Of a stretch of DNA of 39,026 nt, positions 21,980-38,581 are shown in pieces. Each line of letters opens with the position of its first letter. The first letter of the stretch is position 1. The translations under genes were made by a program, and so were the position numbers. The stretch covers positions 1 through 39,026 of IMG/VR virus record IMGVR_UViG_3300034073_003716. The stretch is one strand, 5' to 3'. A model generated the notes under the pieces. The model made no database searches, was not told the origin of the DNA, and worked only from the letters and a program-made list of their open reading frames with translations. Source of the DNA: a virus.

Positions 21980-21986
21980 TATTTAT
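21980..21986 (-). promoter_or_regulatory. Probable late promoter
   Basis: ATAAATA, 24 bases before the ATG at 21956. It overlaps the stop codon of the 121-aa gene. The same site occurs in the duplicate at 37281-37287. Confidence 0.5.
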
Positions 21987-22348: not shown

Positions 22349-22361
22349 TTTACTTAAGTAG

Positions 22362-22976: not shown

Positions 22977-22988
22977 GTTGTATTTTTT

Positions 22989-23183
22989 TCAATTAAAAAA
23001 AGATTGTAGAACTTTACCTTTTTCAGCACGACTTGAATAGTCGTCAATCCAACTTTCAATGACATCACGAATATCTTCACATACTTCTTCTGGAGAAGTT
23101 TCTGGATCTTGAAGATAATCATATATCGCATCTTCCAATGCTCTATATCTTGTCCATTCAGGAGTATAAGGTTTGTATTTCAT
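22989..23183 (-). CDS. Hypothetical protein (YxPYxxEW family), 64 aa
   Basis: KYKPYTPEWTRYRALEDAIY, then an acidic helical part. The paralogue at 35397-35597 begins NYRPYSTEWHRKRYLKEALD. In the second locus, as here, the 106/107-aa family gene lies nearby, so the pair travels together. Confidence 0.75.
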   Translation of the reverse strand: MKYKPYTPEWTRYRALEDAIYDYLQDPETSPEEVCEDIRDVIESWIDDYSSRAEKGKVLQSFFN

Positions 23184-23192
23184 TGCTATAGG

Positions 23193-23360
23193 TTAAGGAT
23201 TGTCTTCAAGGTCTTTCAAGTATTCTAACCACCACTGAGGGTTTTTGTCAACCCACCAATTAGGTTCAATAATACCTTTTTCCAAGTACCAATCACGAAT
23301 GGCACTTTTAATAGTATCACCAATCTCTATCTGCTTCTTCCTTTGCATCAATGTCTTCAT
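23193..23360 (-). CDS. Hypothetical protein, 55 aa
   Basis: MKTLMQRKKQIEIGDTIKSA, then a Trp-rich end (EPNWWVDKNPQWWLEYLKDL). Several in-frame ATGs exist; 23360 has a GGGAG six bases upstream. It overlaps the membrane-protein gene by 44 bases. Confidence 0.65.
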   Translation of the reverse strand: MKTLMQRKKQIEIGDTIKSAIRDWYLEKGIIEPNWWVDKNPQWWLEYLKDLEDNP

Positions 23361-23517
23361 ATGCATCTCCCAAATAGGGTCCATGTGGTCGTTTTGCATC
23401 TTCTTTTACATACTTGACTTCAGAAGCACTTGAGGACAACCATAATGACATTTTAGTTATAATGAAAATGATTGCAAGGGGAAGGAAACATAAAGAAACT
23501 AATATTGGGTATTTCAT
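23317..23517 (-). CDS. Small membrane protein, 66 aa
   Basis: An N-terminal membrane helix (YPILVSLCFLPLAIIFIITK) and a charged tail (VKYVKEDAKRPHGPYLGDAY). It overlaps its neighbours at both ends. Function unknown. Confidence 0.7.
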   Translation of the reverse strand: MKYPILVSLCFLPLAIIFIITKMSLWLSSSASEVKYVKEDAKRPHGPYLGDAYEDIDAKEEADRDW

Positions 23518-23837
23518 TAGTCTCTTTGTCTCCAGTCTTCTGGTTTATCATCAGAAAAGAAATCTACAATATCGTCAACAGTCTCAAATCTACGAATACC
23601 TTTTCCTTCGTGACCAAATCCACCAATATCAAGGGCATTCAAAAACCCATCCAAACTATCCTCAGTCATATCAGGATTTTCTGCTTTTCTTCGTGCCTGA
23701 CGGAGCATCGTAGCAGCAGAACGATTTGCTTTCGCAAGTTTTTCTGCCCATATCATTTCTTCAAGTTCAACAGTTTCTCTGTTGATAATTTTTTGACAAA
23801 TACCTTCAAGTTTGAGACGATATTGTGTAGAAAGCAT
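23517..23837 (-). CDS. Conserved-looking cyanophage protein, copy 1, 106 aa
   Basis: MLSTQYRLKLEGICQKIINR, then MIWAEKLAKANRSAATMLRQ, a DSLDGFLNALDIG segment and an acidic FF-containing end. Helical and soluble. The paralogue at 35053-35376 keeps the whole plan. Both copies have a CTAAATA or ATAAATA late motif about 22 bases upstream, so expression late in infection is likely. Confidence 0.82.
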   Translation of the reverse strand: MLSTQYRLKLEGICQKIINRETVELEEMIWAEKLAKANRSAATMLRQARRKAENPDMTEDSLDGFLNALDIGGFGHEGKGIRRFETVDDIVDFFSDDKPEDWRQRD

Positions 23838-26516: not shown

Positions 26517-26684
26517 CTATTTAGAATTTAAGTCACTTTTTGAGTGTAGTTCCAGTAAAGAACGTACAAATAATTCTGTAAATCGTTCTTGTTTTTCTGG
26601 TATAACTGAAGCTGGGTATTCATTTATTGCAGACTTGAGTGCCTGCATTTCTTCACGTTCTTCTTGTGTGAGATCCATTTCCAT
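26517..26684 (-). CDS. Array II small protein (LTQEE family), 55 aa
   Basis: MDLTQEEREEMQALKSAINE, then PASV and a RFTELFVRSLLE helix, a paralogue of 19087-19251. Start at 26684 or 26678 (two ATGs). Confidence 0.75.
   Translation of the reverse strand: MEMDLTQEEREEMQALKSAINEYPASVIPEKQERFTELFVRSLLELHSKSDLNSK
26518..26524 (-). promoter_or_regulatory. Probable late promoter of cp12
   Basis: CTAAATA on the minus strand 22 bases before the cp12 ATG; it overlaps the stop of the 55-aa gene. Confidence 0.55.
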
Positions 26685-26766
26685 TTGCGTATGTCAGCAA
26701 ATCCTAACATTATGTATGCTAAAAGTGTTGTTTTTTAATATTCTCTTTAGGGTTCAGTAATAGTTC

Positions 26767-26904
26767 TTAATGAGATTGTTTTTTTACAGATTTGTCAGTT
26801 TGTTCTGAATCAACTCCCGTTAAAACGTGCATATACTCCCAAGAAAAAATACTGACAAAAGAAGAAATTGTGGCAATTAAAACATAACTAATAACTTTTT
26901 TCAT
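26767..26904 (-). CDS. Small membrane or exported protein, 45 aa
   Basis: MKKVISYVLIATISSFVSIF is a signal-anchor-like start, followed by a short polar tail (DSEQTDKSVKKQSH). It lies 4 bases below the HCHENVCHKH protein gene, so the two may act together at the membrane. Confidence 0.65.
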   Translation of the reverse strand: MKKVISYVLIATISSFVSIFSWEYMHVLTGVDSEQTDKSVKKQSH

Positions 26905-26908
26905 ATTA

Positions 26909-27076
26909 TCAATGTTTATGACAAACGTTTTCGTGACAATGGACAGTATTAGAACTTATATGAAACTTCCCATGATAAATTCCAAATCCAATCATGGAAA
27001 GAAAAGCTGGGACAAAAATAGCAGCTGCTAATTGTGCCATTCTATCATTTGATAAAAAAGATTTGATGCTGTTCAT
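26909..27076 (-). CDS. Membrane protein with Cys/His-rich tail, 55 aa
   Basis: A membrane helix at about residues 12-32 (AQLAAAIFVPAFLSMIGFGI) followed by a C-terminal VHCHENVCHKH, two Cys and four or more His in eleven residues. The tail looks able to bind a metal such as zinc, copper or nickel. A CTAAATA motif lies about 31 bases upstream. I know no family with this sequence. Confidence 0.68.
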   Translation of the reverse strand: MNSIKSFLSNDRMAQLAAAIFVPAFLSMIGFGIYHGKFHISSNTVHCHENVCHKH

Positions 27077-27106
27077 AATTTATGTGTTACTTATATTAAC
27101 AATTTT

Positions 27107-27113
27107 TATTTAG
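27107..27113 (-). promoter_or_regulatory. Possible late promoter
   Basis: CTAAATA, 31 bases before the ATG at 27076; overlaps the stop of the 77-aa gene. Confidence 0.4.
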
Positions 27114-27343
27114 TCTTCATCAGAAATAAAAAAGTTTTCCCACGTACCTGAATCACCTTTTTTGCGATTCTCAAGTTTATCTAGCAAATCATCAGTGCTA
27201 ATAACAGCATCAATTTTATGAATTAAATCTGCGATGCACGAAACAACAACAGATCTTTCCCCTCTTGCAGCAAATGCCAAAGCATTTCTTAGATTTGCTT
27301 CTGCTTCTCTTAAACTATCTTCAACTTGTTGTCCCAGTGCCAT
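27110..27343 (-). CDS. Array II helical protein, 77 aa
   Basis: EAEANLRNALAFAARGERSV, then IADLIHKIDAVISTDDLLDK and KGDSGTWENFF. A paralogue of 19347-19574. ATG 27343 chosen by this alignment. It overlaps the IQTCG-family gene by 23 bases. Confidence 0.78.
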   Translation of the reverse strand: MALGQQVEDSLREAEANLRNALAFAARGERSVVVSCIADLIHKIDAVISTDDLLDKLENRKKGDSGTWENFFISDED

Positions 27344-27500
27344 CGGGTTCCTCCTCAAATAACATACAACCAATACAACTTTGTAATTCTACCATATCTT
27401 CCTTAGAAAGTCCATCTAAGGTAATGGCATGTTTTTCAAAGGCAATGGTGAGAGAATACTCACCATCACCCATACTACCACAGGTTTGGATAGTTCTCAT
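27321..27500 (-). CDS. Array II protein (IQTCG family), 59 aa
   Basis: MRTIQTCGSMGDGEYSLTIA, then LDGLSKEDMVELQSCIGCML. A paralogue of 19597-19791 with the same C-x2-C helix. The start overlaps the upstream TGA. Confidence 0.78.
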   Translation of the reverse strand: MRTIQTCGSMGDGEYSLTIAFEKHAITLDGLSKEDMVELQSCIGCMLFEEEPDGTGTTS

Positions 27501-27952
27501 TTTCCTTCTCCGTATACATAAAGGTCCTCTTCCTTTTCTGGTGGAACCCAAAAACCATCATCGGTCATACTATATCCAGCATCCACAGCTTCCTGATAGG
27601 TTAAAAGTTTATGACTTGCCTTATGATAGAACTTCTCTGCTTTATCAAGCAATTCATCAAAGTTATCTTCAACCACTTGATTTGAAGTGCTTTCAGTTAC
27701 TTTGGGAGTTTCATCCCTTTTAATTGCCACAACAGTATTAGTCCAGGCATCCTTGAACTTAGTATCAAAATCTTGAAGATAAAACTCCAAGTATTCATTT
27801 GCGGCATACATTAATGCTTCTGCCTTATCCAGTTTATGACTTTCAAGTGCTTCAATTGCACTGTCAAGTATTTCACGGGCACTTGAAACTTTACAGGTAG
27901 TCATTTCAAGTTCATTCATCGTGTCCCATACTTTCTGATAATTAATTGCCAT
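27497..27952 (-). CDS. Array II protein (YQKVWDTMNELE family), 151 aa
   Basis: The first 75 residues (YQKVWDTMNELEMTTCKVSS, then REILDSAIEALESHKLDKAE) and the AGYSMTDDGFWV motif match 19788-20123. About 40 extra residues with a KAEKFYHKASHKLL helix lie between. ATG 27952 chosen by alignment; a longer reading needs TTG. Confidence 0.8.
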   Translation of the reverse strand: MAINYQKVWDTMNELEMTTCKVSSAREILDSAIEALESHKLDKAEALMYAANEYLEFYLQDFDTKFKDAWTNTVVAIKRDETPKVTESTSNQVVEDNFDELLDKAEKFYHKASHKLLTYQEAVDAGYSMTDDGFWVPPEKEEDLYVYGEGK

Positions 27953-28130
27953 ATTCCTCATCGTATGATTTACAAGCTTGTTCAATAATAATCTGAATTT
28001 CCTTAGAAGTCAAGTTATTTAACCAAGACCAATTAGGGTCATTCCTATCCCATTCTGCGGAATAAGAACCATCAGGATTTTGAATAATTCTAAGACTATC
28101 ATTCTCTTGGTTTTGGTTTGTTACACTCAT
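27942..28130 (-). CDS. Conserved-looking cyanophage protein, 62 aa
   Basis: LRIIQNPDGSYSAEWDRNDP, then WSWLNNLTSKEIQIIIEQAC. I recall similar EWDxNDPxWSWLN proteins in other cyanophages, of unknown function. It overlaps both neighbours. Confidence 0.78.
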   Translation of the reverse strand: MSVTNQNQENDSLRIIQNPDGSYSAEWDRNDPNWSWLNNLTSKEIQIIIEQACKSYDEEYGN

Positions 28131-28419
28131 TACAGTAATAGCTAAATCCGTGTTTGAACGATTTTATCACCTGATAGTGGTTTTTGTCTAGGGGTTTCTC
28201 CTCCCCACAACGGGAGCAAATCCTACTTGTTGTCGTAATTGAGTTGCTCCCAATCTTTTCGTTCTTGTTTGCGAAGGGATTTAAGTTCCTTATAAAGTTC
28301 CTTGATTTGCTGGTAAGCATCTTCGGGGCTGATTTTATCTGCGATTTCAAGTCCCGCAATAAGACCAACTTTGTCCCCAAATCTTGCCAGTGCTCTTTCA
28401 AATTCAGTGAGACTTTCAT
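28099..28419 (-). CDS. Zn-ribbon ORF in +1 frame, start uncertain, up to 106 aa
   Basis: The last 43 residues contain RICSRCGEEKPLDKNHYQ and FKHGFSYYCNECNKPKPRE, nearly the same zinc ribbon as at 11688. The first 60 residues overlap the 66-aa gene and look unconserved. No ATG, GTG or TTG lies near the ribbon in this frame. Either translation begins at ATG 28419, which overlaps the upstream TGA as ATGA, or the ribbon is reached by a +1 shift at the end of the 66-aa gene. Confidence 0.55.
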   Translation of the reverse strand: MKVSLNLKEHWQDLGTKLVLLRDLKSQIKSAPKMLTSKSRNFIRNLNPFANKNEKIGSNSITTTSRICSRCGEEKPLDKNHYQVIKSFKHGFSYYCNECNKPKPRE

Positions 28420-28423
28420 ACAT
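28223..28423 (-). CDS. Helical phage protein, 66 aa
   Basis: MYESLTEFERALARFGDKVG, then KISPEDAYQQIKELYKELKS and a basic end. The helical pattern is convincing. Its ATG at 28423 lies only four bases from the ATG of the zinc-ribbon frame, so two overlapping starts sit in the same ribosome-binding region. Confidence 0.75.
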   Translation of the reverse strand: MYESLTEFERALARFGDKVGLIAGLEIADKISPEDAYQQIKELYKELKSLRKQERKDWEQLNYDNK

Positions 28424-28631
28424 TTTTAGTAATCCTACAGTGTTCTGCAAGTATATCTATGCGAGCATCTAATGAATTCTCAAGACGGTAGAGTTCATTT
28501 GTAGTAGAAATGTTTTCATCTTCTAACTTAAGAATTCTCTGCTCCAGTTCTTCAATTTTCTTGAACAATACATCAGTTGGAACCTCTTGAGTTCCCCACT
28601 TCTTTTGAAACCAGTTAGGGTCTTGGGTCAT
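28416..28631 (-). CDS. Array II coiled-coil protein, 71 aa
   Basis: MTQDPNWFQKKWGTQEVPTD, then a heptad region (FKKIEELEQRILKLEDENIS) ending ARIDILAEH. A paralogue of 20120-20368 in the coiled coil only. Confidence 0.75.
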   Translation of the reverse strand: MTQDPNWFQKKWGTQEVPTDVLFKKIEELEQRILKLEDENISTTNELYRLENSLDARIDILAEHCRITKNV

Positions 28632-28783
28632 TTGATTACTCCAATTTCTCTCAGATAGGCATTATAACGCATAAAACCACCAACTCTCACGGGTCGTTCA
28701 AGACTATGGCAACACTCCTGATATGAGAGAAACTCATACCAAGGAGTTGTGGGGTCAAGTGTAGGAAACTCAGAGTTTTCCAT
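28628..28783 (-). CDS. Array II protein (FPxLDxTTPWY family), 51 aa
   Basis: MENSEFPTLDPTTPWYEF, then CCHSLERPVRVGGFMRYNAY. It starts exactly where similarity to 21126-21329 begins. A longer form from 28810 is possible. Confidence 0.75.
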   Translation of the reverse strand: MENSEFPTLDPTTPWYEFLSYQECCHSLERPVRVGGFMRYNAYLREIGVIK

Positions 28784-28976
28784 CCACTGTTCCTTGATAC
28801 GAAACATCATCTTTAAATCCCTCTTGAAGACCTTTCAGATAGAAACGGGTAGATTGAATGCAAGTTTCTTTATTCAGAGAAGTGATTAGTTTCTTACCCA
28901 CTGTATCTTCAGAAACCCAAGTTCCCCATCGTTGCTGTTGGACATAGAAGCAGTCGTCAATTAGTTCCTTTTGCAT
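28770..28976 (-). CDS. Array II protein (IDDCFxVxQxxWGTW family), 68 aa
   Basis: IDDCFYVQQQRWGTWVSEDT, then LITSLNKETCIQSTRFYLKG and a TVDGKL end. A paralogue of 21366-21575. The gene order around it differs from array I: here it follows the 41-aa gene, there it precedes the 45-aa gene. Confidence 0.8.
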   Translation of the reverse strand: MQKELIDDCFYVQQQRWGTWVSEDTVGKKLITSLNKETCIQSTRFYLKGLQEGFKDDVSYQGTVDGKL

Positions 28977-29082
28977 TCTGATTTACAAGATTATAATAAG
29001 TTTCAAGTGCATTGGCAGATTCTACTGTTTCTTCCCATTCCCAGATAGTACCATCTTTCTGAGTATAAGTGCGTGTTGCCAT
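28957..29082 (-). CDS. Array II protein (RTYxxKxGxxxEWxET family), 41 aa
   Basis: MATRTYTQKDGTIWEWEETV, then ANALETYYNLVNQN. A paralogue of the first 32 residues of 21232-21369. It overlaps the 68-aa gene by 20 bases. Confidence 0.7.
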   Translation of the reverse strand: MATRTYTQKDGTIWEWEETVESANALETYYNLVNQNAKGTN

Positions 29083-29084
29083 AA

Positions 29085-29366
29085 TTAATCCTCCTTTACT
29101 GATATTTTACAATTTTTTCTATTGAGTTTGTGTCTTGCAATATGTTTTTCCATATGATTAGCACATTGGAAGAAACATATTTTTTTATCTTTACCATCCA
29201 TATACTCAAGACGATGTGAAAATCCAACATGAGGAAAAATTTCCTTTGTACTTAAGGATTTTGAATCATCGGCAGACTTAGTTGTTGGTTTTGTTGTCTT
29301 TGCTTTGGCCTTAGTTGTCTTGGGTTTTTCTGGTTTTGAAGAATCTGTTTTTTTAGGTCTAGGCAT
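29085..29366 (-). CDS. Basic protein with CFFQCANH motif, 93 aa
   Basis: The start at 29366 follows a strong AAGGAG site. Residues 1-40 are Lys/Thr/Pro-rich (KPEKPKTTKAKAKTTKPTTK), resembling histone-tail-like linkers. The C-terminal half has CFFQCANHMEKHIARHKLN, matching the Cys/His cluster of 20857-21129. Perhaps a nucleic-acid-binding protein with a zinc site. Confidence 0.75.
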   Translation of the reverse strand: MPRPKKTDSSKPEKPKTTKAKAKTTKPTTKSADDSKSLSTKEIFPHVGFSHRLEYMDGKDKKICFFQCANHMEKHIARHKLNRKNCKISVKED

Positions 29367-29412
29367 AAGACTCCTTGTATTTTTGGAAATCATAATTCCC
29401 AGCTACCAACAC

Positions 29413-29468
29413 ATCATACCTAAAAAAACACCACCCGTCAAGGGTGGTGTGCCAGTCTTTAAACTGTC
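29413..29468 (-). promoter_or_regulatory. Early-type promoter with stem-loop and palindromic box
   Basis: Box at 29449-29468, 7 bp, -35 TTGACG (29436-29441) as the loop of a CACCACCC/GGGTGGTG hairpin followed by seven T, 17 bp, -10 TATGAT (29413-29418). It ends cassette B and starts array II. This is the clearest case of a -35 placed in a terminator loop. Confidence 0.88.
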
Positions 29469-29477: not shown

Positions 29478-29909
29478 TTATGATGCATTTAGTTCATTAT
29501 ACTTCCTTTCAAGTACTTCAATTTGTTTTGAATGAAATATGCGATAAAATACAGAAACATTGTATGAACTATTACTACTTGTAAAAGCAATTCTTTCAAT
29601 TTCCCAAGTAATATTACCATCACTTAAGACTTCTCTCCTATATTTGTAATTATTATAGATCAAATATTCACATTTTTCAATTTTAACATCTGATCGTTCC
29701 ATGTTTTTTATTGGAACTATATCTTTTTCAATAATAAGATTTTTTACACCATTATCATTATTTGATACTATATTCTCCTCATGATGTTCATGATATCTAT
29801 GATGTTCATGATGTTCATGGTCATGATGTTCATGATTATTTTCACTATTTTCATTATGATTTTGATATGAATTTAACAATTCAATGAGTTCTCTAGATTT
29901 ATCTATCAT
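29478..29909 (-). CDS. Cassette B protein with His-rich tract and YRREV motif, 143 aa
   Basis: Residues about 20-45 are almost all His, Glu and Asp (HEHHDHEHHEHHRYHEHHEE), an obvious metal-binding tract. The later YNNYKYRREV block with a Trp-Glu-Ile strand matches 5019-5345, which has no His tract. The DNA of the tract is a CATGATGTT-like tandem repeat, so it may have grown by slippage. It is the last gene of cassette B. It may store or deliver iron for the oxygenases or His-rich fibres; that is inference only. Confidence 0.75.
   Translation of the reverse strand: MIDKSRELIELLNSYQNHNENSENNHEHHDHEHHEHHRYHEHHEENIVSNNDNGVKNLIIEKDIVPIKNMERSDVKIEKCEYLIYNNYKYRREVLSDGNITWEIERIAFTSSNSSYNVSVFYRIFHSKQIEVLERKYNELNAS
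29780..29838. repeat. Short tandem repeat encoding the His tract
   Basis: Imperfect copies of CATGATGTT or TCATGATGT over about 60 bases (plus strand). They encode the HEH/HHD tract of the 143-aa gene. The repeat is a likely site of length variation. Confidence 0.75.
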
Positions 29910-29913
29910 AGTC

Positions 29914-30450
29914 TTAAATATCCGATGGTGGAATTGGCCAATCTGGGTGATTTGGATCTATAGTCAAAGCAATGGGATCTTCAACAGTTTCTGGAAGGTC
30001 TCTAAGTTTTTGCCTATATTCTGCCCACTGCATTTTTTCTTCTTCAGTAAATGGTGAATCTGGAAGCATTATCCAATCAGTTATTTCTAACCGACCAGAC
30101 CTTTCTCCTCTTAATTTTTCTTCTGGGGAAAGATTTTCAAATGTATTTAATTGAGACTGGATAACTGCTTCTTCAGCAATTCTCCTACTCATTTCCTGTT
30201 CAAAGACTTCAATAGCTTGAGCAAATTCACCAACACTATCAACTCTTGAATTCCAACTTACGTCTTCAGGATCATCCCATGGATTTCTATGGTATTCAAT
30301 ATCTCCCCATTGAACTTCGGGATACCAATGAAATGCCCTAACATTTTGTGGAATCCAATTCAATAGTTTTTTATCAATATCTGTCAGTACAGTCCCATCA
30401 ACTATTATTGTACCATCTGATGGAACGATAATAAGTGAAGTAGTAAACAT
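29914..30450 (-). CDS. Tail-fibre assembly chaperone-like protein, 178 aa
   Basis: A paralogue of 5348-5857: N-terminal IVPSDGTIIVDGTVLTDID and AFHWYPEVQWGDIEY, C-terminal W-x-x-YRQKLRDLP and DPNHPDWPIPP. The middle contains a Glu-rich helix. Both copies sit in the same cassette position, supporting a role tied to the fibre genes of their own cassette. Confidence 0.8.
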   Translation of the reverse strand: MFTTSLIIVPSDGTIIVDGTVLTDIDKKLLNWIPQNVRAFHWYPEVQWGDIEYHRNPWDDPEDVSWNSRVDSVGEFAQAIEVFEQEMSRRIAEEAVIQSQLNTFENLSPEEKLRGERSGRLEITDWIMLPDSPFTEEEKMQWAEYRQKLRDLPETVEDPIALTIDPNHPDWPIPPSDI

Positions 30451-30809
30451 TATTCATCTCCTCCTTCATTTTCTCCAAGCATATTTAGAGGATTGTCTAA
30501 AGGTGTTATTTGAGACTCTAAAATTTTATTTTGATTAGATTGTTCCATAAAAGACAAATACAATTGTCTATTTTCAGAATTTGCTCTGACCATTTCGTTT
30601 CTAAAAGATTCAACAGCAGCACCAGCTTGCCTTGCTTGCTGCGAAGTTTCAATTTGCATGACTGGTATCCAAGAAATTGCACAATTCCAATCATCCATCA
30701 TTTCACCAGTGTTTGGGTTCATTCCACGTACTTGAATAAACCAAGCACATTTATTACCTACACACTTTTTCTTAATAAGTGGACACCAAGTTCCAGGTTC
30801 AATTTTCAT
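30450..30809 (-). CDS. Cys-containing cassette protein, 119 aa
   Basis: A paralogue of 5854-6225: TWCPLIKKKCVGNKCAWF and DWNCAISW keep all four Cys, and GMNPNTGEMMDD and QQARQAGAAVESFRNE are nearly unchanged. It is one of the best conserved members of the two cassettes, which suggests a general rather than fibre-specific role. Confidence 0.78.
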   Translation of the reverse strand: MKIEPGTWCPLIKKKCVGNKCAWFIQVRGMNPNTGEMMDDWNCAISWIPVMQIETSQQARQAGAAVESFRNEMVRANSENRQLYLSFMEQSNQNKILESQITPLDNPLNMLGENEGGDE

Positions 30810-30821
30810 TTTTTTCTCCTA

Positions 30822-31514
30822 TCAATTATTATAATTAGAAATTCTAAGCAATTCATTTTGAATGTTCTTCACAACAAAGCTTGGATCTCTCATGGATGAA
30901 TTGCAGTCTGTAAATTGTATTGGTACAGGATTTTCTTGAAAATACTTATCAATTAATTGTAGTTGATTGTATATTTTTCTGAAAGTAAGATCTTTAATTA
31001 AACTAATAGTCCAAAATACAGATGCATATCTTGTACCATGTAATACTGTATTAACTCTATGTATAGTTCCAGTGGGATATGTTATTGCCCATCCTGCCTC
31101 TGGTTTAAACATTTGCTCCTCATTTCCAAGTAACAAACAAAGTTCACCTCCAGAGTATGTTGATGGATCACTTAAAAATAAAGTTGTACTGTAATCACCA
31201 TTATTAAAATTATCCATATGTGGTTTGTAATAATCCCCAGATTCATATTTGGAAATGATATTCAAACCAGAACATTTTGCTACAGTGTATGAAATAAAAT
31301 CTTTGTCACTATCCAATGATTCCATTATAAAATCATTAATTTTTTGCGACATATTATGATCGATTAATTCTCTATTTCTTTTTATAGAAGAATTTCCACC
31401 ACCACTCATTAACCCATTTTCCCAAAGGTTATTCTCATCAGCATGTTTTAGTAAGTTTTGAATAATACTTACATGCTCATCATCTAAAACTTTTCTTAAG
31501 TAAAAATTTTCCAT
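30822..31514 (-). CDS. PKHD-type 2OG-Fe(II) hydroxylase, 230 aa
   Basis: A paralogue of 6229-6918 with the full site: KPHMDNFNNGDYSTTLF (H-x-D), YPTGTIHRVN (distal His) and HGTRYASVFW (Arg). GGELCLLLG is also kept. ATG 31514 overlaps the upstream TAA (TAATG); the longer reading would start with TTG 31526. The C-terminal 60 residues are the most divergent part between the two copies. Confidence 0.88.
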   Translation of the reverse strand: MENFYLRKVLDDEHVSIIQNLLKHADENNLWENGLMSGGGNSSIKRNRELIDHNMSQKINDFIMESLDSDKDFISYTVAKCSGLNIISKYESGDYYKPHMDNFNNGDYSTTLFLSDPSTYSGGELCLLLGNEEQMFKPEAGWAITYPTGTIHRVNTVLHGTRYASVFWTISLIKDLTFRKIYNQLQLIDKYFQENPVPIQFTDCNSSMRDPSFVVKNIQNELLRISNYNN

Positions 31515-32803
31515 TAAACTAACCAAGTAATTATTGAGTATCTAGTGCCTTCAGTAACAGGCATAACTTCATGTGGGAACATAAAGTTTGATGGGAACAT
31601 TATAACAGATCCTTTTCTTGATTTAATCATAACTTGTCGATTAAAGAATGCAAATTCTCCACCTTCATAGTCATCATTTAATATCATAGCACATGAAACT
31701 GATCTTTGCTCTTTTCTGAATGAATCTACGTGCTCAACATAGAATCCACCTGTTTCATACTTAAGCAATTGATATCCAGTATCAATTTCTATACCAAAAT
31801 CATTATGCATATCATGATATTTTATCATTGCATTTTTAACTGATTCATAAATTCTCATATCAAGATTTTTTCTATATTCTTGATTTCTACCGATAACTTC
31901 CAAATCACTCATAAGAATATTCTTGCAATTTCTTGCACTTTTGTTTACAGGATTATTTAAATCTGCAACTTCAGCATCTTGCCACTCTGAAGAATTTGCA
32001 AATTCATTTATAATTTCATCACATAATTCATCTGGAATGATGTTATTAAAAACGTGTATGTACTGTTCAAGTGTATTTGATGGGCTTGGCATAAGTGGTT
32101 CTTTGTTTTTTAATATACTATTTTTTGATTTTTCTAGGTTACCATTATCTTCATCAGATACAACAACCTCATCATTAGTCTTTATATCTTTTTGAATATT
32201 TTCTTCAAAAGGTTCTGAAGGATTTAAGAAGAAAGATTTATTAACCCTTACATTTTCATCTTTTGTTGTTATATCCATATCGAAATAACTAGTTCCGTAT
32301 GGACCTCTACTTCTCACATAATGTAAGAATACTTGAGTATAATATTGTCCATCATATTGATGCCTCCAGTGATCAGCATCACACCCAAGATACATCATTG
32401 CATCTCCAGGATTTAAATTGACTTTTTTTTCATTACCTTTTGGATCAACAATGTAAATTGGCCAAGATTTATCTGAATCAAGATGAAGTGTTAGTGATAT
32501 TTCGCATTCCTTTCTATCAGAATGCCTCTCTAAGATATCACCATTTGAATATACTCTTGAATAGCAATATGTTGGTAAAACAGTTTCTTCTAAAATATGT
32601 GAAATTTCTGGGGTTTTTTCACATAAAAGTTCTAAAAAAGAAATGTAATTATATAATGCCCTGGAATTTGGTGCTGCTACATCACCAGGGACATTTTCGT
32701 TTTCTGAAAATATTTTAAATTCTCTACCAAGTTCTTTTGCTCTAAATTTATTAATAAAATTTGGCAATATCAGGTAATTGTTTTTCTTTAATTTTATATT
32801 CAT
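31514..32803 (-). CDS. Two-domain 2OG-Fe(II) oxygenase, 429 aa
   Basis: A paralogue of 6915-8129. Domain 1 has H94-S-D96 (LERHSDRKECEIS) and H145 (DADHWRHQY). The linker is about 25 residues longer and very acidic. Domain 2 has H358-V-D360, GGEFAFFNRQ, H411 (FPHEVMP) and R421 (GTRYSIITW). Both metal sites are kept in both copies, so both domains are probably active and selected. Position directly below three fibre-tip genes is also kept. Confidence 0.85.
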   Translation of the reverse strand: MNIKLKKNNYLILPNFINKFRAKELGREFKIFSENENVPGDVAAPNSRALYNYISFLELLCEKTPEISHILEETVLPTYCYSRVYSNGDILERHSDRKECEISLTLHLDSDKSWPIYIVDPKGNEKKVNLNPGDAMMYLGCDADHWRHQYDGQYYTQVFLHYVRSRGPYGTSYFDMDITTKDENVRVNKSFFLNPSEPFEENIQKDIKTNDEVVVSDEDNGNLEKSKNSILKNKEPLMPSPSNTLEQYIHVFNNIIPDELCDEIINEFANSSEWQDAEVADLNNPVNKSARNCKNILMSDLEVIGRNQEYRKNLDMRIYESVKNAMIKYHDMHNDFGIEIDTGYQLLKYETGGFYVEHVDSFRKEQRSVSCAMILNDDYEGGEFAFFNRQVMIKSRKGSVIMFPSNFMFPHEVMPVTEGTRYSIITWLV

Positions 32804-32825
32804 AATAATACCTTTTTATTATATA

Positions 32826-33449
32826 TTAGTCTTTGACACAAATAATCATGTCACGATAGAAAACAGAAAAGTTTTCTGAAGGTACAGGAGATTGTGAATG
32901 ACCATGAGCAACACCACCTACAGTATGGCTATGTTGACTATTAATTGCATGTCCATGAGCAGTAACATTTACAGTATGGGAGTGTTGAGCACTTCCTCCA
33001 GATGCATTACTAAGAATATTTGCAACATCTTGATTAACTGCTTGAGGGCCTGGACTATTTCTACATGCTGTAATTGCATTACATTGATAAAGACCATGAG
33101 AGTGTGCATGAATTGAATTAAGATTTGCAGAAGTATTAAATGCTCCTCTTACTTGTTGTGGATTTATTCCAGACCCCGCAGTGTTTATGCTAGTATTGAC
33201 AGTAATCGTTGCTGGAGTAACAGTTGCAACTTGTTGTTTTGCGGTTAAAACTTGTGCATATGGAGTTGCAGTTCTTGGAGTGACTGTCCCCGTTACTACT
33301 CTAAGTGCAATTCCAGTAGTGCTGGGAACGGTATCCTTTGTCCAACTGACAGGAGCTGATGCATTTTCAAAAATCATCCTAGTTCCTGCAGAAATAAAGT
33401 CAGGAATATAAAGACAATCATCTAAAGTATTTGAACTTAAAACAGCCAT
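32826..33449 (-). CDS. His-rich tail-fibre tip protein B3, 207 aa
   Basis: Starts SSNTLDDCLYIPDFISAGTR, then APVSWTKDTVPSTTGIALRV. The last 60 residues carry many H-x-H motifs (HSHTVNVTAHGHAINSQHSH), ending FSVFYRDMIICVKD. By start and end it is the counterpart of A3 (8184-8834), which shares CLYI and the FSVxYRDxII end. Confidence 0.8.
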   Translation of the reverse strand: MAVLSSNTLDDCLYIPDFISAGTRMIFENASAPVSWTKDTVPSTTGIALRVVTGTVTPRTATPYAQVLTAKQQVATVTPATITVNTSINTAGSGINPQQVRGAFNTSANLNSIHAHSHGLYQCNAITACRNSPGPQAVNQDVANILSNASGGSAQHSHTVNVTAHGHAINSQHSHTVGGVAHGHSQSPVPSENFSVFYRDMIICVKD

Positions 33450-33463
33450 ATTATTTCCCTCCT

Positions 33464-34120
33464 TTAGTTCTTAGATGCTATTATAACATCATAATATGAA
33501 ACTGCAAAATCTTGAGATGCTACTGTAACTGTATGGACGTGAGCTGATGAGGCTATTACTGGATGTGTATGTGCAGCATTGTTTGTTGTGTGACTATGCT
33601 GTGATGTTGCACCTGGGAATGAATGGTTATGCTGAGCATTTACTGGAGAAGCACCATTGTTATTAACTGAAAGATCAGATAATCCCCTTGCAACAACTGG
33701 TTTATTAGTTGGTGGACCTACTGGACCTGGCTGAGCATCTCCAGGAAATCTTACTCCAGAGTGACCATGAGTTGCCAAAGTATTTCCATCTGATGTGCGA
33801 GCAATACTATTCACATTAACTGTAGTTTGTGTAAGACTGAGAGAAATTGTTGCTGGCTGAACTGTTTGTGCATCACCACCAGAACCAGCCTGCACTTGAA
33901 CTGCTTTTTGAGTATCTGGAAAAACAGCAATAAATGGGTTTGTTCCACCAGAGCTAACTGTTCCAGTAACTATACGCAATGCTTTGTTATTATGACTTGT
34001 GGTGTCCTTTGTCCAACTCGTTGGTGCAGATGTTCCATTAAAAATCATTCTCGTTCCAGAAGCAATAAAGTCTGGAATTGAATTACAACCTGTTAAACTA
34101 TCTAATCCTAATATTGCCAT
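33464..34120 (-). CDS. His-rich tail-fibre tip protein B2, 218 aa
   Basis: Starts GLDSLTGCNSIPDFIASGTR, then APTSWTKDTTSHNNKALRIV, identical over most of that block to A2. The end has HNHSFPGATSQHSHTTNNAA, further H-x-H and FAVSYYDVIIASKN. The middle is unrelated to A2 by eye, as expected for a receptor-contacting part. TGATG overlap with the gene upstream. Confidence 0.8.
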   Translation of the reverse strand: MAILGLDSLTGCNSIPDFIASGTRMIFNGTSAPTSWTKDTTSHNNKALRIVTGTVSSGGTNPFIAVFPDTQKAVQVQAGSGGDAQTVQPATISLSLTQTTVNVNSIARTSDGNTLATHGHSGVRFPGDAQPGPVGPPTNKPVVARGLSDLSVNNNGASPVNAQHNHSFPGATSQHSHTTNNAAHTHPVIASSAHVHTVTVASQDFAVSYYDVIIASKN

Positions 34121-34770
34121 CAGTTTTTAGTACAAACTACAACATCTACATATAATATATCAAAATTTCTTCCAGTCATTGTTATTAAATGATCATGACC
34201 CGCACCAGATAATGCGTGACTATGTGCCTCTCCACCATATGGATGACTGTGTTGTGAATTATTTACATTATGATTATGCCCTTGTTGATTACCTCTTTGG
34301 TTGAATCCAACACCAATGTTTCTACCTGTATTTGGAAGTCTTGTTGTTGGAGAACCAGTAACTGAAGTAACATTAACCCTAGTTTGATATGGGTGTGTAT
34401 GAGATACCATAGCACCATCAGGAAGGGCATTAGTTGTTGTTGCAAAGTTACTATTTCCTTGCCCAATAGTTACATATCCAGATGCAGGTCCTGTAGTATT
34501 TGTTCCTGGATGTATAGTTGAATCATTTAAACTAAAAGGACTTGCTTTACCTGAAACAAAAACCGTACTAAATGCTAATTGACCACCTGGAGTTAGACCA
34601 GTTGCATTGGGACCTCCAATAATTCTTATAGATCTATCATCAATTCCAGTTGCAACTTTTGTCCAATTCAATGGAGCATTAGTTTGCTGAAATATCATTC
34701 TACTCCCAGGACCAATAAAATCTGGGATAAATCCACATCCAGTTAAAGTAGTACTTCCAAGTACAGCCAT
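34120..34770 (-). CDS. His-rich tail-fibre tip protein B1, 216 aa
   Basis: First gene of cassette B. Standard start (TLTGCGFIPDFIGPGSRMIF), APLNWTKVATG, an IGGPNATGLTPGG block shared with A1 (IGGANGTALSPGG), a VSHTHPYQTR middle and an H-x-H-rich end (HNHNVNNSQHSHPYGGEAHS). It ends FDILYVDVVVCTKN. An ATAAATA late motif lies 20 bases upstream. Confidence 0.8.
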   Translation of the reverse strand: MAVLGSTTLTGCGFIPDFIGPGSRMIFQQTNAPLNWTKVATGIDDRSIRIIGGPNATGLTPGGQLAFSTVFVSGKASPFSLNDSTIHPGTNTTGPASGYVTIGQGNSNFATTTNALPDGAMVSHTHPYQTRVNVTSVTGSPTTRLPNTGRNIGVGFNQRGNQQGHNHNVNNSQHSHPYGGEAHSHALSGAGHDHLITMTGRNFDILYVDVVVCTKN

Positions 34771-34789: not shown

Positions 34790-34796
34790 TATTTAT
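34790..34796 (-). promoter_or_regulatory. Probable late promoter of fibre cassette B
   Basis: TAATAAATA on the minus strand, 20 bases before the ATG at 34770, in the same place as the motif before cassette A. Confidence 0.6.
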
Positions 34797-34811: not shown

Positions 34812-35060
34812 TCAATTAATAACTCCAGTTTCTTTAAAATACTGCAGAGTTTCCTTCAATCCTCCAATATGTTTATGATTAATTGTGATTTGTGGATATT
34901 GTGCGTCCTTGCCAAATTCCATACGGAATTGTCTATCACTGAAATCTGCACCAAGAATATATTCAAGGTACTCTCCACCAAGACTTTTCAATAGCATACG
35001 AATTCTTTCACACTCTTGATTTCCATCAGTGTAAAGAACTGCAGTAAGTTTTTCAGTCAC
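34812..35060 (-). CDS. Glutaredoxin-like protein without CPxC, 82 aa
   Basis: A thioredoxin-fold protein of glutaredoxin size: AVLYTDGNQECERIRMLLKS (strand, active-site loop, helix), then AQYPQITINHKHIGGLKETL with the cis-Pro and the GG substrate motif. The usual C-P-x-C is replaced by NQEC, leaving one Cys one place off the standard position. It may bind glutathione or a partner rather than reduce disulphides. Start is GTG 35060, overlapping the upstream gene by 8 bases. Confidence 0.75.
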   Translation of the reverse strand: MTEKLTAVLYTDGNQECERIRMLLKSLGGEYLEYILGADFSDRQFRMEFGKDAQYPQITINHKHIGGLKETLQYFKETGVIN

Positions 35061-35376
35061 GTCTCCTCCATTCGTCAGTGTCAGTGTCATCTCTTGTAAA
35101 CCAATCAACAATTTCATCAACACTATTAAATCCAGTGCGATGATTAGTTGGATCTGGATCACCCAAATCAAGAGCATTTAGAAATCCATCCAAACTATCT
35201 TGATCCATATTTGGATTTTGTGCTTTCCTTCTTGCTTGACTTAACATGGTACGAGCATGTCCATTTGCTTTTGCAAGTTTTTCCGCCCAAATCATTTCAT
35301 GAAGTTGAACTGATTCACCCAATTCAATTGCTTCACAAATTCTCTGTAATCTAATACGATATTGTGTGGAAAGCAT
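35053..35376 (-). CDS. Conserved-looking cyanophage protein, copy 2, 107 aa
   Basis: MLSTQYRIRLQRICEAIELG, then MIWAEKLAKANGHARTMLSQ and DSLDGFLNALDLG, a paralogue of 23517-23837. The start at 35376 follows from that alignment. An ATAAATA late motif lies 22 bases upstream. Confidence 0.82.
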   Translation of the reverse strand: MLSTQYRIRLQRICEAIELGESVQLHEMIWAEKLAKANGHARTMLSQARRKAQNPNMDQDSLDGFLNALDLGDPDPTNHRTGFNSVDEIVDWFTRDDTDTDEWRRRD

Positions 35377-35396
35377 TCGTTTCTCCAATTATGGTA

Positions 35397-35597
35397 CTAT
35401 TTATTTGTATAAATGCGTCTTTCAAGGTCTAAAGTGCGACTAAAATCATTAAAAGAACACTCTGATCTTTCAGAAAGAATATCTAAAATATCATTAAGAA
35501 TAACATCATTATCAACATAATCATTGAGATAATTATCCAATGCTTCTTTTAAATATCTTTTGCGATGCCATTCAGTTGAATATGGTCGGTAGTTCAT
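35397..35597 (-). CDS. Hypothetical protein (YxPYxxEW family), 66 aa
   Basis: NYRPYSTEWHRKRYLKEALD, then an acidic helical stretch and a FSRTLDLERRIYTNK end. A paralogue of 22989-23183. ATGA overlap with the upstream gene. Confidence 0.75.
   Translation of the reverse strand: MNYRPYSTEWHRKRYLKEALDNYLNDYVDNDVILNDILDILSERSECSFNDFSRTLDLERRIYTNK
35398..35404 (-). promoter_or_regulatory. Probable late promoter
   Basis: ATAAATA, 22 bases before the ATG at 35376. It overlaps the end of the 66-aa gene. Confidence 0.55.
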
Positions 35598-35779
35598 TCA
35601 TTTTTAGGTAAAGAAAAATAATAATCGTAATATTTAGAGAGAAGATCTCTAATGGTATTATAGTCCTTTTCATCCAAACAGTCAAGTAAATATGAAGCAC
35701 CTTCCAATTCAGCAATGAGTCTTGCAATAAGTGCTCTATTTAATTTTTGAACATTCCACTTTTGTTTGAGTAGTTGCAT
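35594..35779 (-). CDS. Hypothetical helical protein, 61 aa
   Basis: MQLLKQKWNVQKLNRALIAR, then LIAELEGASYLLDCLDEKDY and an aromatic end. It overlaps the membrane-protein gene upstream by 44 bases, unusually long for this window, so the true start may be later. Confidence 0.65.
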   Translation of the reverse strand: MQLLKQKWNVQKLNRALIARLIAELEGASYLLDCLDEKDYNTIRDLLSKYYDYYFSLPKNE

Positions 35780-35960
35780 AGTCAATATCATTCCAGTGTC
35801 TTATTGCATTTGCAATAATAAATCCATTTGTTACAATTAACTGTATCATAATCAATAGTCTAATAAATGCAATTTTATCAGACTCACTATCAGTTTTTCC
35901 AGATTTTTCACCAAGAGATTTAGCAATGATTCTCCAAGCAGTAGTCTTATATTTTTTCAT
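35736..35960 (-). CDS. Small membrane protein (RxIAKSLGEKSGK family), 74 aa
   Basis: WRIIAKSLGEKSGKTDSESD, then a membrane helix (IRLLIMIQLIVTNGFIIANA) and a KVEC tail. A paralogue of 20655-20873. Its ATGA overlap with the glycosyltransferase gene links them. Confidence 0.78.
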   Translation of the reverse strand: MKKYKTTAWRIIAKSLGEKSGKTDSESDKIAFIRLLIMIQLIVTNGFIIANAIRHWNDIDYATTQTKVECSKIK

Positions 35961-37018
35961 CTATTTTTTATTATCTCTAATGTATTATAGAAAGCTCCAG
36001 TTACAGTAAAATAATTTTCCCATATTTTTCTGTTTTGTTTTTGTATGTCCAATAACTCTTGCTCAGAGTGAGAATTATGAAATTCCCTAATAACTTTATC
36101 AATTTGATTAAAGTTATCTGAATTTTCTTTTGTTACATAAACCGTATTTTTTTGATATGGAATAATATGATCAAATGGTAGAAGACAATCAGTGTCAATA
36201 AGAACGGGTATTCTTCCCATCATAAAAGTTTCTGAGAGTCTAAATGAAAAATTTCCACCACCTCTTATGCATAATGTATATAAATTATTTTCAATATTTG
36301 CAAAATATTCTTCTTGGGATTTTTTAGGAGAACTTTTTTCCCAACTAAGATACTCTGAATGAAGTTCACCTCCCTTTATGTGGAGATTTTTACTTATATC
36401 TCCCCACATGGATCTAATGATGAAATTATAACCAGATTTTTCACACAAGGAATTTAAAATTTTTTCCCTGTAATTATTACTCATACCACAAAACCCAACT
36501 CCAAACTGTTTTTCAGAATATTTCCCCGAAAAACAGTCTCTATTTAATGTTGGACAAGAAAAAATATTATTAAAACTTTTAGACTTTAACCAACTACTTC
36601 TAAAAATTATAATATTTTGATTATTTTTTATGTCTGGAGAATTTAAAAAATCAAATTCATAATCATAATCGTCCCCATAAAATAAAATTAACCCCTTATT
36701 ATGTGATTTGCAAAGATCTATCAAATACTTTGTATATGTGATATCACATTCAAAGTTTTGTGGGGAACATGTTGCAATATATCCAACAACGTAATCACAT
36801 TCATCTATAGTCTTACAAAATTCAAAAGATACTTTTACTATATCTTTGAAAATTTCATATGATTCACTATTTAACTGCGATAAAAATTTATACTTAAGTG
36901 TTTTGGGAAGTAAACAGAAATAAAAATAATTATGAAATTGATCGTAAAAGTTAGAGGGACATTTTAACCTATAACGATTATCAATTAACTCTTCAGTGTA
37001 ATTTGTATAAAACTTCAT
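35957..37018 (-). CDS. Exostosin-like glycosyltransferase, 353 aa
   Basis: The C-terminal part has the exostosin (GT47-like) signature: NNLYTLCIRGGGNFSFRLSE, then FMMGRIPVLIDTDCLLPFDH and IPYQKNTVYV. The N-terminal half is a Rossmann-like region (GLILFYGDDYDYEF, NIIIFRSSWL). It would transfer a sugar from a nucleotide sugar, to phage DNA, protein or a host glycan. The DNA is markedly more AT-rich than its surroundings and the gene is inserted between two array-type genes, suggesting transfer. Confidence 0.8.
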   Translation of the reverse strand: MKFYTNYTEELIDNRYRLKCPSNFYDQFHNYFYFCLLPKTLKYKFLSQLNSESYEIFKDIVKVSFEFCKTIDECDYVVGYIATCSPQNFECDITYTKYLIDLCKSHNKGLILFYGDDYDYEFDFLNSPDIKNNQNIIIFRSSWLKSKSFNNIFSCPTLNRDCFSGKYSEKQFGVGFCGMSNNYREKILNSLCEKSGYNFIIRSMWGDISKNLHIKGGELHSEYLSWEKSSPKKSQEEYFANIENNLYTLCIRGGGNFSFRLSETFMMGRIPVLIDTDCLLPFDHIIPYQKNTVYVTKENSDNFNQIDKVIREFHNSHSEQELLDIQKQNRKIWENYFTVTGAFYNTLEIIKNR

Positions 37019-37257
37019 TCATTATTTTTTAAAAATTCTTTTTCAAGTTCTCTAGCAATTTTATCATACTTCCAACGCATTATCAAGTTTGTAATGGGAT
37101 TTTTAGGATGAAATCGAATCATCCAATAAACCCTCTCAGAATTAATTTTTATAATCTTAAAGACCAACGTAAGATATTCTGCCACGTTTGGGTCTATAAT
37201 CATCATATATGCTATGACTCCAAATAGTAGGAGTATTATAGAATTAAATGGAGTCAT
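37015..37257 (-). CDS. Small membrane protein, copy 2, 80 aa
   Basis: TPFNSIILLLFGVIAYMMII, then IKINSERVYWMIRFHPKNPI and an acidic end. A paralogue of 21705-21956. Its ATAAATA motif upstream is kept. The C-terminal ends differ because the flanking genes differ. Confidence 0.78.
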   Translation of the reverse strand: MTPFNSIILLLFGVIAYMMIIDPNVAEYLTLVFKIIKINSERVYWMIRFHPKNPITNLIMRWKYDKIARELEKEFLKNNE

Positions 37258-37280
37258 AGTCTTATCCTATGGTATGGGTA

Positions 37281-37287
37281 TATTTAT
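37281..37287 (-). promoter_or_regulatory. Probable late promoter
   Basis: ATAAATA, 24 bases before the ATG at 37257, the duplicate of the site at 21980-21986. Confidence 0.5.
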
Positions 37288-37649
37288 TCCTCATCTTCTT
37301 CAAGGTCTATGAGGTCAGACAATCTTTTCATTGTGTCCCAATGCAAAGGGACAGTTTCAACTTTTCCAGTCGCAACATCGTGAGACATTTGTAGCAAACT
37401 ATCAAGGAAATCTTTTGAGTATATTTCATCCTCTAAACTATCCCAGAAGTATAGAATACACTGCTCTAATGGGTCGTCTTCTTTTAAGAGAGCATAACTC
37501 TCATAGTTGTTTCCCATTAGGTCTGCCCAGTTCTTAAAGGCATACCAACAATTATGCCACCCCTGAATAAGACAGGAGTGCCAGATATACTCAAACCAAG
37601 TCATTTTAACTTTATCGGTTTCTGTTCCTAAAAGAGGTTTTGAAAACAT
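37284..37649 (-). CDS. Duplicated protein, copy 2, 121 aa
   Basis: The same protein as 21983-22348 with four differences (Y/H, N/E, G/E and M/L). All lie outside the Trp-rich core, which is unchanged. The high identity points to recent duplication or gene conversion. Function unknown. Confidence 0.85.
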   Translation of the reverse strand: MFSKPLLGTETDKVKMTWFEYIWHSCLIQGWHNCWYAFKNWADLMGNNYESYALLKEDDPLEQCILYFWDSLEDEIYSKDFLDSLLQMSHDVATGKVETVPLHWDTMKRLSDLIDLEEDEE

Positions 37650-37650
37650 T

Positions 37651-37821
37651 TTACTTCTTGGGTTCTGATTTAATGATAACGGGACAAGTAGGAACTACTT
37701 TCCTCAATTCTAGCACAATTTCCGCTTTTTGTTGAGGAGTGAGGTGTAGCACCGTCTCCATTCTGTTAAGGATTGAATATAATTGCCCGCAGTTCAGGAA
37801 GGTAACTAAAAGTATATCCAT
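37651..37821 (-). CDS. Hypothetical protein, 56 aa
   Basis: MDILLVTFLNCGQLYSILNR, then HLTPQQKAEIVLELRKVVPT and a short polar end. It has a clear GGGAGG ribosome-binding site and a late-type motif 34 bases upstream. Confidence 0.7.
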   Translation of the reverse strand: MDILLVTFLNCGQLYSILNRMETVLHLTPQQKAEIVLELRKVVPTCPVIIKSEPKK

Positions 37822-37854
37822 AGTGAATTACCTCCCTTATTTGATTGTTGTTCC

Positions 37855-37861
37855 TATTTAT
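37855..37861 (-). promoter_or_regulatory. Possible late promoter
   Basis: ATAAATA on the minus strand, 34 bases before the ATG at 37821, touching the stop of the exported 66-aa gene. Confidence 0.45.
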
Positions 37862-38061
37862 TACTCAATCCCATCAAATTGACGCATATACTCTACGCAG
37901 TCTTTGAATTGCTGCCATTCCTCATCTGAGAAGTTATCAGAGGCATAAGGAATTTCCACAATTGCCGCACAAACCCGATTGACATTTACTCGTATCATCA
38001 TATCATTTGCCATCGCAGGAGTGGCAAAAGGAATAACCAAAAGTGGGATTAGACTTTTCAT
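37861..38061 (-). CDS. Small exported protein with signal peptide, 66 aa
   Basis: MKSLIPLLVIPFATPAMA is a classical Sec signal peptide with an A-M-A cleavage site before ND. The mature part (about 48 residues) has two Cys (RVCAAIV, FKDCVEY) that could form a disulphide in the periplasm or thylakoid lumen. Coupled to the 78-aa gene by ATGA. Confidence 0.78.
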   Translation of the reverse strand: MKSLIPLLVIPFATPAMANDMMIRVNVNRVCAAIVEIPYASDNFSDEEWQQFKDCVEYMRQFDGIE

Positions 38062-38294
38062 AGGTGTTGCTCTAGTGATGCTTTGCTGTTTGCTTTTTTA
38101 AGTGCTTTGATTTGGGAGTTAATGTGTTTCTTAGCAGTCTCTAATGTGTTGGAGACTTGAACCTGCTGACCATTATGAATAATCATAAAACGGTTCCCAA
38201 AAGGAACCGCTGCCCACATTCCATCTTTGGTTACATAACCTGAAGGTTCTGTTGGTACTGGTTCTAGGATACCATAATTTTGAATTTCAATCAT
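38058..38294 (-). CDS. Hypothetical protein, 78 aa
   Basis: A beta-rich start (GYVTKDGMWAAVPFGNRFMI, then IHNGQQVQVS), then a basic helix. Perhaps a small nucleic-acid-binding domain, without a recognised motif. Coupled to both neighbours. Confidence 0.75.
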   Translation of the reverse strand: MIEIQNYGILEPVPTEPSGYVTKDGMWAAVPFGNRFMIIHNGQQVQVSNTLETAKKHINSQIKALKKANSKASLEQHL

Positions 38295-38581
38295 ACAAAT
38301 ATTTTATAGAGAATGAATAGTGCTGCAATAGCAAGTGTAATTGGCCAATATGTAATGGCAAGAGCAATCACAATCAAAATAGCAACAAATGTTCCACTAA
38401 AACTAGAGTCTCCACCAGATGAAGAACTCCTCTCATTAACCTGCCTTAGGTTAATGACTTGTTCGGCACCATAGATTCTCTCAAGTTGTTCTCTTGCACC
38501 ATGAGCAGTATTTGAGTGTACCTCAAGGTTCTGATAACCATTAGCAGAACCAAGCCAGCATTTAGCAGTCCAACGTGCCAT
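38291..38581 (-). CDS. WTAKCW-domain membrane protein, short form, 96 aa
   Basis: ARWTAKCWLGSANGYQNLEV, then GAREQLERIYGAEQVINLRQ, the same domain as 18489-19010. A Ser/Gly linker and a single long membrane region (TFVAILIVIALAITYWPITL) follow. It lacks the second membrane segment and tail of the longer paralogue. Confidence 0.8.
   Translation of the reverse strand: MARWTAKCWLGSANGYQNLEVHSNTAHGAREQLERIYGAEQVINLRQVNERSSSSGGDSSFSGTFVAILIVIALAITYWPITLAIAALFILYKIFV

Follow-up and report, generated by a model that had tools for sequence, protein, structure and literature searches.

The virus fragment IMGVR_UViG_3300034073_003716 from IMG/VR, analysed here over its whole length (39,026 bases, hereafter the window), carries two complete copies of an eight-gene unit in which three short tail-fibre genes are combined with genes for a putative assembly chaperone, a four-cysteine protein, two predicted oxygenases and a small protein. 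We named these cassette A (5019-10182) and cassette B (29478-34770); both are on the minus strand, run from g8 (high coordinate) to g1 (low coordinate) and lie 24 kb apart. In the explanation we lean towards, both A and B are intact, long-diverged versions of a portable kit of T4-like viruses, united by recombination between related phages. The virus of the window is itself T4-like, with RNA ligase 1/fibre attachment protein, a polynucleotide kinase-like protein and dCMP deaminase as markers, and its hosts are probably aquatic cyanobacteria.

Eight paired genes in two cassettes

Each cassette consists of eight open reading frames (ORFs) in one shared order. In the direction of transcription, the first three (g8, g7, g6) are predicted to encode HxH fibre-tip proteins and the next two a two-domain (g5) and a one-domain (g4) 2-oxoglutarate (2OG)-Fe(II) oxygenase; a four-Cys protein is the predicted product of g3, a tail-fibre assembly chaperone that of g2 and a small protein that of g1. 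All eight genes of A and B were collinear and reciprocal best partners in BLASTP, with identities of 44% (g2), 75% (g3), 61% (g4), 59% (g5), 42% (g6), 41% (g7) and 39% (g8), and the best match of each fibre was its positional partner in the other cassette, as compared to 31-37% for neighbours in its own. For g1 only a 27-residue core was common to both (67%, E ~5e-7).

The pairing bears out a preliminary description of this DNA, which had listed eight counterparts in the same order and had stated that the oxygenase active sites and the Cys protein are kept while the fibre middles and the small terminal protein differ. Indeed, the HxD...H sets and the four Cys are retained in both copies, and identity between the fibres of A and B is 70/70/54% over the N-terminal 60 residues, 28/23/33% in the middles and 42/44/38% in the C-termini. 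Variable middles next to kept N-termini and a kept HxH region form the pattern expected of receptor-binding tips. Gene-by-gene alignment, proposed in the same description, gave ratios of nonsynonymous to synonymous change (dN/dS, Nei-Gojobori method NG86) of 0.20 (g3), 0.22 (g4), 0.29 (g5), 0.31 (g2), 0.34 (g6), 0.53 (g1), 0.61 (g7) and 0.89 (g8), which are rough values because the synonymous sites are near saturation (dS ~0.7-1.7). No tRNA or structured RNA was found when the cassette borders were scanned.

Descent of the cassettes and the setting of cassette B

Relatives were found by IMG/VR searches with g3, g5, g4 and fibre profiles and by a hidden Markov model survey of the fetched loci. 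The order FFF-g5-g4-g3-g2 (F, fibre gene) is present once on each of seven other viral contigs, five of them distinct: c220 (contig 3300020220_000285), c402, c272, c113, 3300008262_000854, c691 and c107. The c272 proteins are identical to those of c402, 3300008262_000854 is a near copy of c113, the kit of c220 carries g1 too, and a further contig, c703, ends inside g4 of the unit. An FF(F)-g3-g2-g5 arrangement occurs at many more loci, and in roseophage CRP-361 and P-SSM2 the succession is fibre gene, g3, g2-type gene, a full g5 being absent. The unit stands directly after long fibre or structural genes in c220, c402/c272 and c703 and inside a small-gene array in c691, like B. Judged by gene content and order, the kit is a portable host-recognition module, the same gene set moving together through differing genomic contexts. 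The search by g4 gave one full relative, c220. Two kits were found in the window only; g3 was present in 33 of the 38 other records searched, each time exactly once.

Redundant entries were removed before tree building, among them c272, which copies c402, and c703 was omitted from the concatenated tree because its contig holds no g3 or g2. Every one of the seven gene trees (g2-g8) had a branch separating A, B and c220 from the other cassettes, and against wide outgroups this group was supported by 96/91 for g5, 98/95 for g3, 93/86 for g2 and 100/100 for g4. The preliminary description had set piecemeal assembly, with gene pairs grouping separately with different phages, against unit duplication; no such scatter was seen in the seven testable trees, and one clade gene by gene argues that the kit was inherited or moved whole. 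Within the clade, each of the eight genes of A is more similar to its c220 counterpart than to that of B (A-c220/A-B identity in %: g1 43/34, g2 67/48, g3 79/71, g4 79/61, g5 71/63, g6 43/42, g7 49/42, g8 55/41). The concatenated tree joined A to c220 (96/97) and rejected both A+B (p=0.027) and B+c220 (p=0.006). Each of the three fibre positions gave (B,(A,c220)), with support of 95/89, 95/87 and 100/98, and a one-residue insertion in a g8 HxH motif is common to A and c220 and absent from B, c402, c113, c691, c703 and c107. Most likely, and with moderate support from these comparisons, the A/B split predates the A/c220 split. Synechococcus phage B23, the nearest named relative by RNA ligase (62%), was considered for dating the kits and gave no date: there was no g3 hit among the matches listed, and g5 was matched by a single-domain oxygenase only, at 29%.

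The surroundings of B are also duplicated. Sixteen small genes of array I (26.5-29.4 and 35.0-38.6 kb) have paralogues, all but one of these at 18.5-23.8 kb (array II), and the pairs have diverged very unevenly (34-97% amino acid identity). Cassette B lies inside array I, and the genes paralogous to those on either side of it adjoin in array II, with no cassette between them. Similarly, homologues of gene 37015 lie close ahead of homologues of gene 29085 in c402 and c107 (an HNH gene intervenes in c107), and in c220 glutaredoxin and the homologues of 37284 and 28770 are consecutive, so that the place of B is kit-free in four comparisons. Moreover, B is held by a 15.3-kb segment (22.36-37.66 kb) with a direct repeat, R, at both ends. 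The R copies are ~640 bp long, match at 78-100% identity per 50-nt step, with lower values at the edges, and share 100 exact nt at the sharp upstream edge (22355/37656); dS is 0.23 for the pair 37284/21983 in R, 0.77 for the second R pair and up to saturation for other array pairs. This R-bounded layout is expected of recombination between shared small genes, and it predicts that recombination of one R copy with the other would remove the 15.3-kb segment together with B. If related phages infecting one cell recombined homologously at shared small genes, R among them, the product would be a partial diploid, and this is how we think the two kits came together.

Several points weigh against this reading. 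The single-gene trees of g2, g3 and g5 lean weakly towards A+B or are undecided between A+B and A+c220; B is a long branch that could be drawn outward in trees; the c220 virus may hold an unseen second kit, contigs being fragments; and none of the cassettes retrieved from other phages is a B-like sister. On the functional side, iron binding, hydroxylation and display of the fibres are what we infer, and the two AlphaFold models were weak (pLDDT, the predicted local distance difference score, ~62; fibre monomer 62.6) and add no evidence.

A possible explanation, to which we give distinctly less credence, is an ancient duplication of the whole kit within one genome before A and c220 parted, with the second copy since lost or unsampled in relatives. 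One common event would suffice for the single clade of A, B and c220, and the region has duplicated otherwise too, as the doubled small-gene array illustrates. However, the place of B is kit-free in array II, c220, c402 and c107, g3 is single in all 33 of the 38 other records searched that carry it, and the array pairs differ so widely in age that no single block event can account for all of them.

That the window is an assembly artefact, two related phage genomes fused at a near-identical R, seems improbable to us. The window is a metagenomic contig and R does hold a long exact repeat, but both R copies are present and differ along their length, the likely genes are all on one strand, GC content stays within 0.29-0.39, and DNA identity between the cassettes themselves is ~72% at most for any gene, no exact match exceeding 26 nt. 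It is more improbable still that B is a decaying spare copy. Unique changes are more numerous in the service genes of B than in those of A (g2 18 v 2, p=0.0004; g3 13 v 0; g5 30 v 12), as decay might suggest, but the fibres of B are not faster (8 v 7, 6 v 5 and 8 v 5), all eight ORFs are open, active sites and Cys are kept, dN/dS is 0.2-0.3 in g2-g5, and B has its own late-promoter-like core and terminator-like hairpin. The preliminary description was right that a complete adhesin unit with its service genes is present in two copies, but its plain reading, that B arose in this phage lineage by a recent tandem duplication of A, is the least credible of all: although gene order is identical and the g2, g3 and g5 trees are singly compatible with A and B as sisters, dS is largely saturated, and since A is nearer c220 and A+B is rejected in the concatenated tree, B is most likely no fresh duplicate, to which the shared g8 insertion and the kit-free site of B add.

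Predicted roles of the kit proteins

HxH motifs, four to six near the C-end, are present in all 24 fibres of eight cassettes, and the fibre profile matches the solved tail-fibre proteins 9qgo (2.5e-11) and 9nxk (5e-6); a match to the gp37 family was not detected for these fibres. The tip of the T4 long fibre, gp37, also carries a row of HxH motifs near its C-end, whereas the fibres of the window are predicted to be whole short proteins in threes. That the three fibres in a cassette form a single heterotrimer was considered and rejected, as HxH spacings differ within cassettes (in c113: 7-12-8, 11-9-10 and 9-12-9), which makes three homotrimers likelier. Over all cassettes, position-specific fibre clades were weakly supported for g6, and g7 and g8 did not each form one clade, although such clades were not rejected (p 0.21 and 0.27). 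We propose that the three short proteins would fold as three separate trimers, with HxH motifs holding iron on the axis as in the gp37 tip, and that g2 would be the trimerising chaperone. For g2 of B a function in fibre assembly is indicated by a match to the PHROG tail fibre assembly family (6e-14), and for g2 of A by its Pfam match (Table 1).

The four cysteines of g3 (C9, C16, C21, C43) are invariant in 52 sequences, and the family counts at least 596 relatives in IMG/VR, among 600 pattern-matched stretches. No clear Pfam family was found for g3, the best match being weak (E 0.0014). In 63 of 78 non-redundant cases g3 lies directly 3' of a fibre gene with at least two HxH motifs, motifs that occur in 21 of 883 other non-fibre genes. 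The 15 exceptions include several FFF cassettes, both window copies among them, with the oxygenases between, and others with a chaperone-like gene between. A widespread family thereby gains a functional lead as partner of HxH fibres, and g3 may assist the HxH part by metal loading or by keeping its fold. The g1 of c220 occupies the same slot as those of the window (43% identity to A, 30% to B). In c402 (12451-12867), c107 (6073-6489) and c113 (4990-5421) another small protein of 138-143 amino acids replaces g1 after g2; that of c402 is a pentapeptide-repeat protein.

Both oxygenases exceed the PF13640 cut-off of 27 bits in either cassette (A g4 36.2, A g5 58.8, B g5 72.2, B g4 47.2). In g5 the metal sets H94/D96/H145 and H358/D360/H411, together with R421, are invariant in 33 sequences, and H103/D105/H156 of g4 is present in A and B. 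g5 matches prolyl 4-hydroxylases (2e-8), which its C-half resembles, and there is a weak match to lysyl hydroxylase LH3 (0.003). A ferrochelatase label on g5 was discarded, as it comes from PHROGs and several phage records only and none of the 12 Pfam families matched by 33 g5 proteins is a ferrochelatase; likewise, collagen-like fibres, present at just 4 of 42 g5 loci, were discarded as a general hydroxylase substrate. Across the 42 non-redundant loci a fibre gene lies within 4 kb of g5 in 41, g2 in 41 and g3 in 38, counts that depend partly on the search since some loci were fetched by g3 or fibre queries. Among the genes near g5 in relatives (115 of 146 listed proteins were scanned against Pfam) we found GT25 glycosyltransferases (7), DegT aminotransferases (7), epimerases (6), radical SAM proteins (5) and Asp/Asn hydroxylases (5). 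The likeliest inference from these associations is that g4 and g5 hydroxylate fibre residues, and in some relatives the hydroxylated residues may then be glycosylated. That they are instead host metabolic helpers, acting on 2-oxoglutarate or nitrogen balance and merely adjoining the fibres, is the published guess for cyanophage 2OG oxygenases (PMC9602691), but we consider it rather unlikely for this kit in view of the near-constant company of fibre and g2 genes and the doubling of g4 and g5 along with the fibres.

Further 2OG-Fe(II) oxygenases (PF13759, phrog_81) are encoded at 4389-5000, directly after cassette A, and at 22362-22976, beside R, and an Exostosin-type GT47 glycosyltransferase (9.9e-9, above cut-off) at 35957-37018, upstream of cassette B. 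On contig 3300021091_002702 (900-16400) a related unit, which also has g5 and g4, is interrupted between g2 and g3 by a cluster of sugar-nucleotide, glycosyltransferase 25, radical SAM and amidinotransferase-like genes.

The kit would be transcribed late in infection as one unit, and a virus that has two of them could put two different sets of tips on display, or hold one kit as recombination stock. The suggestion in the preliminary description that two kits give two receptor specificities is plausible, and they may do so. A more speculative extension, which we rate as doubtful, is that the kits are mutually orthogonal in maturation, each chaperone, four-Cys protein (loading or guarding HxH iron) and pair of hydroxylases being matched to its own three fibres; the R-bounded kit would then be lost or swapped whole through homologous recombination, and host binding would be switched by kit and not by fibre gene.

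Comparison with known host-recognition loci

Earlier work has described fibre-plus-chaperone modules swapped among phages, islands for host recognition, and phages with several receptor-binding proteins. The host recognition module of Alteromonas phages A5 and V22 (PMC10579305) is likewise a fibre-plus-chaperone unit common to distant phages, the V22 fibre has HxH metal sites, and the Fe-binding HxH sites of T4 gp37 are mentioned there; however, it is described as one unit per genome, and the word 'oxygenase' is absent from the main text. Pelagi- and cyanomyophages have a host recognition cluster (PMC7029224) that is similar in that fibres, glycosyltransferases and radical SAM genes form a variable island in these T4-like phages, but it is described there as one island, with no doubled kit. 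In the account of the branched tail-spike set of Ackermannviridae (PMC11414711) there are several receptor-binding proteins per phage, for which an origin by gene duplication had been suggested earlier, and whole spike genes can be acquired. Those spikes are in one locus, whereas in the window not only the fibres are doubled but also chaperone, Cys protein and hydroxylases, and the two copies occupy separate loci.

Among cyanophages, Pam3 has a short fibre with its own trimeric chaperone (gp24/gp25, PMC9608196), but one fibre and one chaperone are described, and 'HxH' and 'iron' do not occur in the main text. Phage S-SCSM1, for which 24 2OG oxygenases are reported, encodes a double-domain 2OG oxygenase, ORF248, that is a g5 homologue (44%) and lies beside g3 and fibre genes (PMC9602691); unlike in the window, its genome has one g3, the gene order is another, and ORF248 is treated as an auxiliary metabolic gene. 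We found no description of a doubled fibre/chaperone/Cys/hydroxylase unit in our searches of open-licence papers. In the kit described here, oxygenases and Cys protein move together with the fibres and are doubled along with them, an argument that at least some of the many unexplained cyanophage 2OG oxygenases serve virion maturation and not host metabolism.

Table 1. Positions of kit genes, candidate signals, repeats and arrays in the window.
Feature	Position	Strand	Remark
B g8, HxH fibre-tip protein, 216 aa (amino acids)	34120..34770	-	first gene of B
B g7, HxH fibre-tip protein, 218 aa	33464..34120	-
B g6, HxH fibre-tip protein, 207 aa	32826..33449	-
B g5, two-domain 2OG-Fe(II) oxygenase, 429 aa	31514..32803	-	HxD...H in both halves
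B g4, single-domain 2OG-Fe(II) oxygenase, 234 aa	30822..31526	-
B g3, four-Cys protein, 119 aa	30450..30809	-	partner of HxH fibres
B g2, tail-fibre assembly chaperone, 178 aa	29914..30450	-
B g1, small His-rich protein, 143 aa	29478..29909	-
A g8, HxH fibre-tip protein, 216 aa	9532..10182	-
A g7, HxH fibre-tip protein, 225 aa	8855..9532	-
A g6, HxH fibre-tip protein, 216 aa	8184..8834	-
A g5, two-domain 2OG-Fe(II) oxygenase, 404 aa	6915..8129	-
A g4, 2OG-Fe(II) oxygenase, 232 aa	6229..6927	-
A g3, four-Cys protein, 123 aa	5854..6225	-
A g2, Phage_tail_APC chaperone, 169 aa	5348..5857	-	PF16778, 59.9 bits, cut-off 26.6
A g1, small protein, 110 aa	5019..5351	-
ATAAATA, T4-type late-promoter-like core	34790..34796	-	19 nt ahead of B g8 start
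Two overlapping ATAAATA cores	10204..10214	-	21 nt ahead of A g8 start
Intrinsic-terminator-like hairpin + T run	29428..29450	-	directly 3' of B g1
Direct repeat R, copy 1	37020..37656	-	genes 37015-37257 + 37284-37649; upstream edge of B-carrying segment
Direct repeat R, copy 2	21720..22355	-	genes 21705-21956 + 21983-22348
Small-gene array copy I, portion following B	26517..29393	-
Small-gene array copy I, portion preceding B	35053..38581	-
Small-gene array copy II	18489..23837	-	paralogous to copy I, no cassette inside

ATAAATA, which we take to be a T4-type late-promoter-like core, occurs 7 times in the window as compared to 16.4 expected, and all occurrences are on the coding strand. Two such cores, at 21980 and 37281, lie inside the two R copies.

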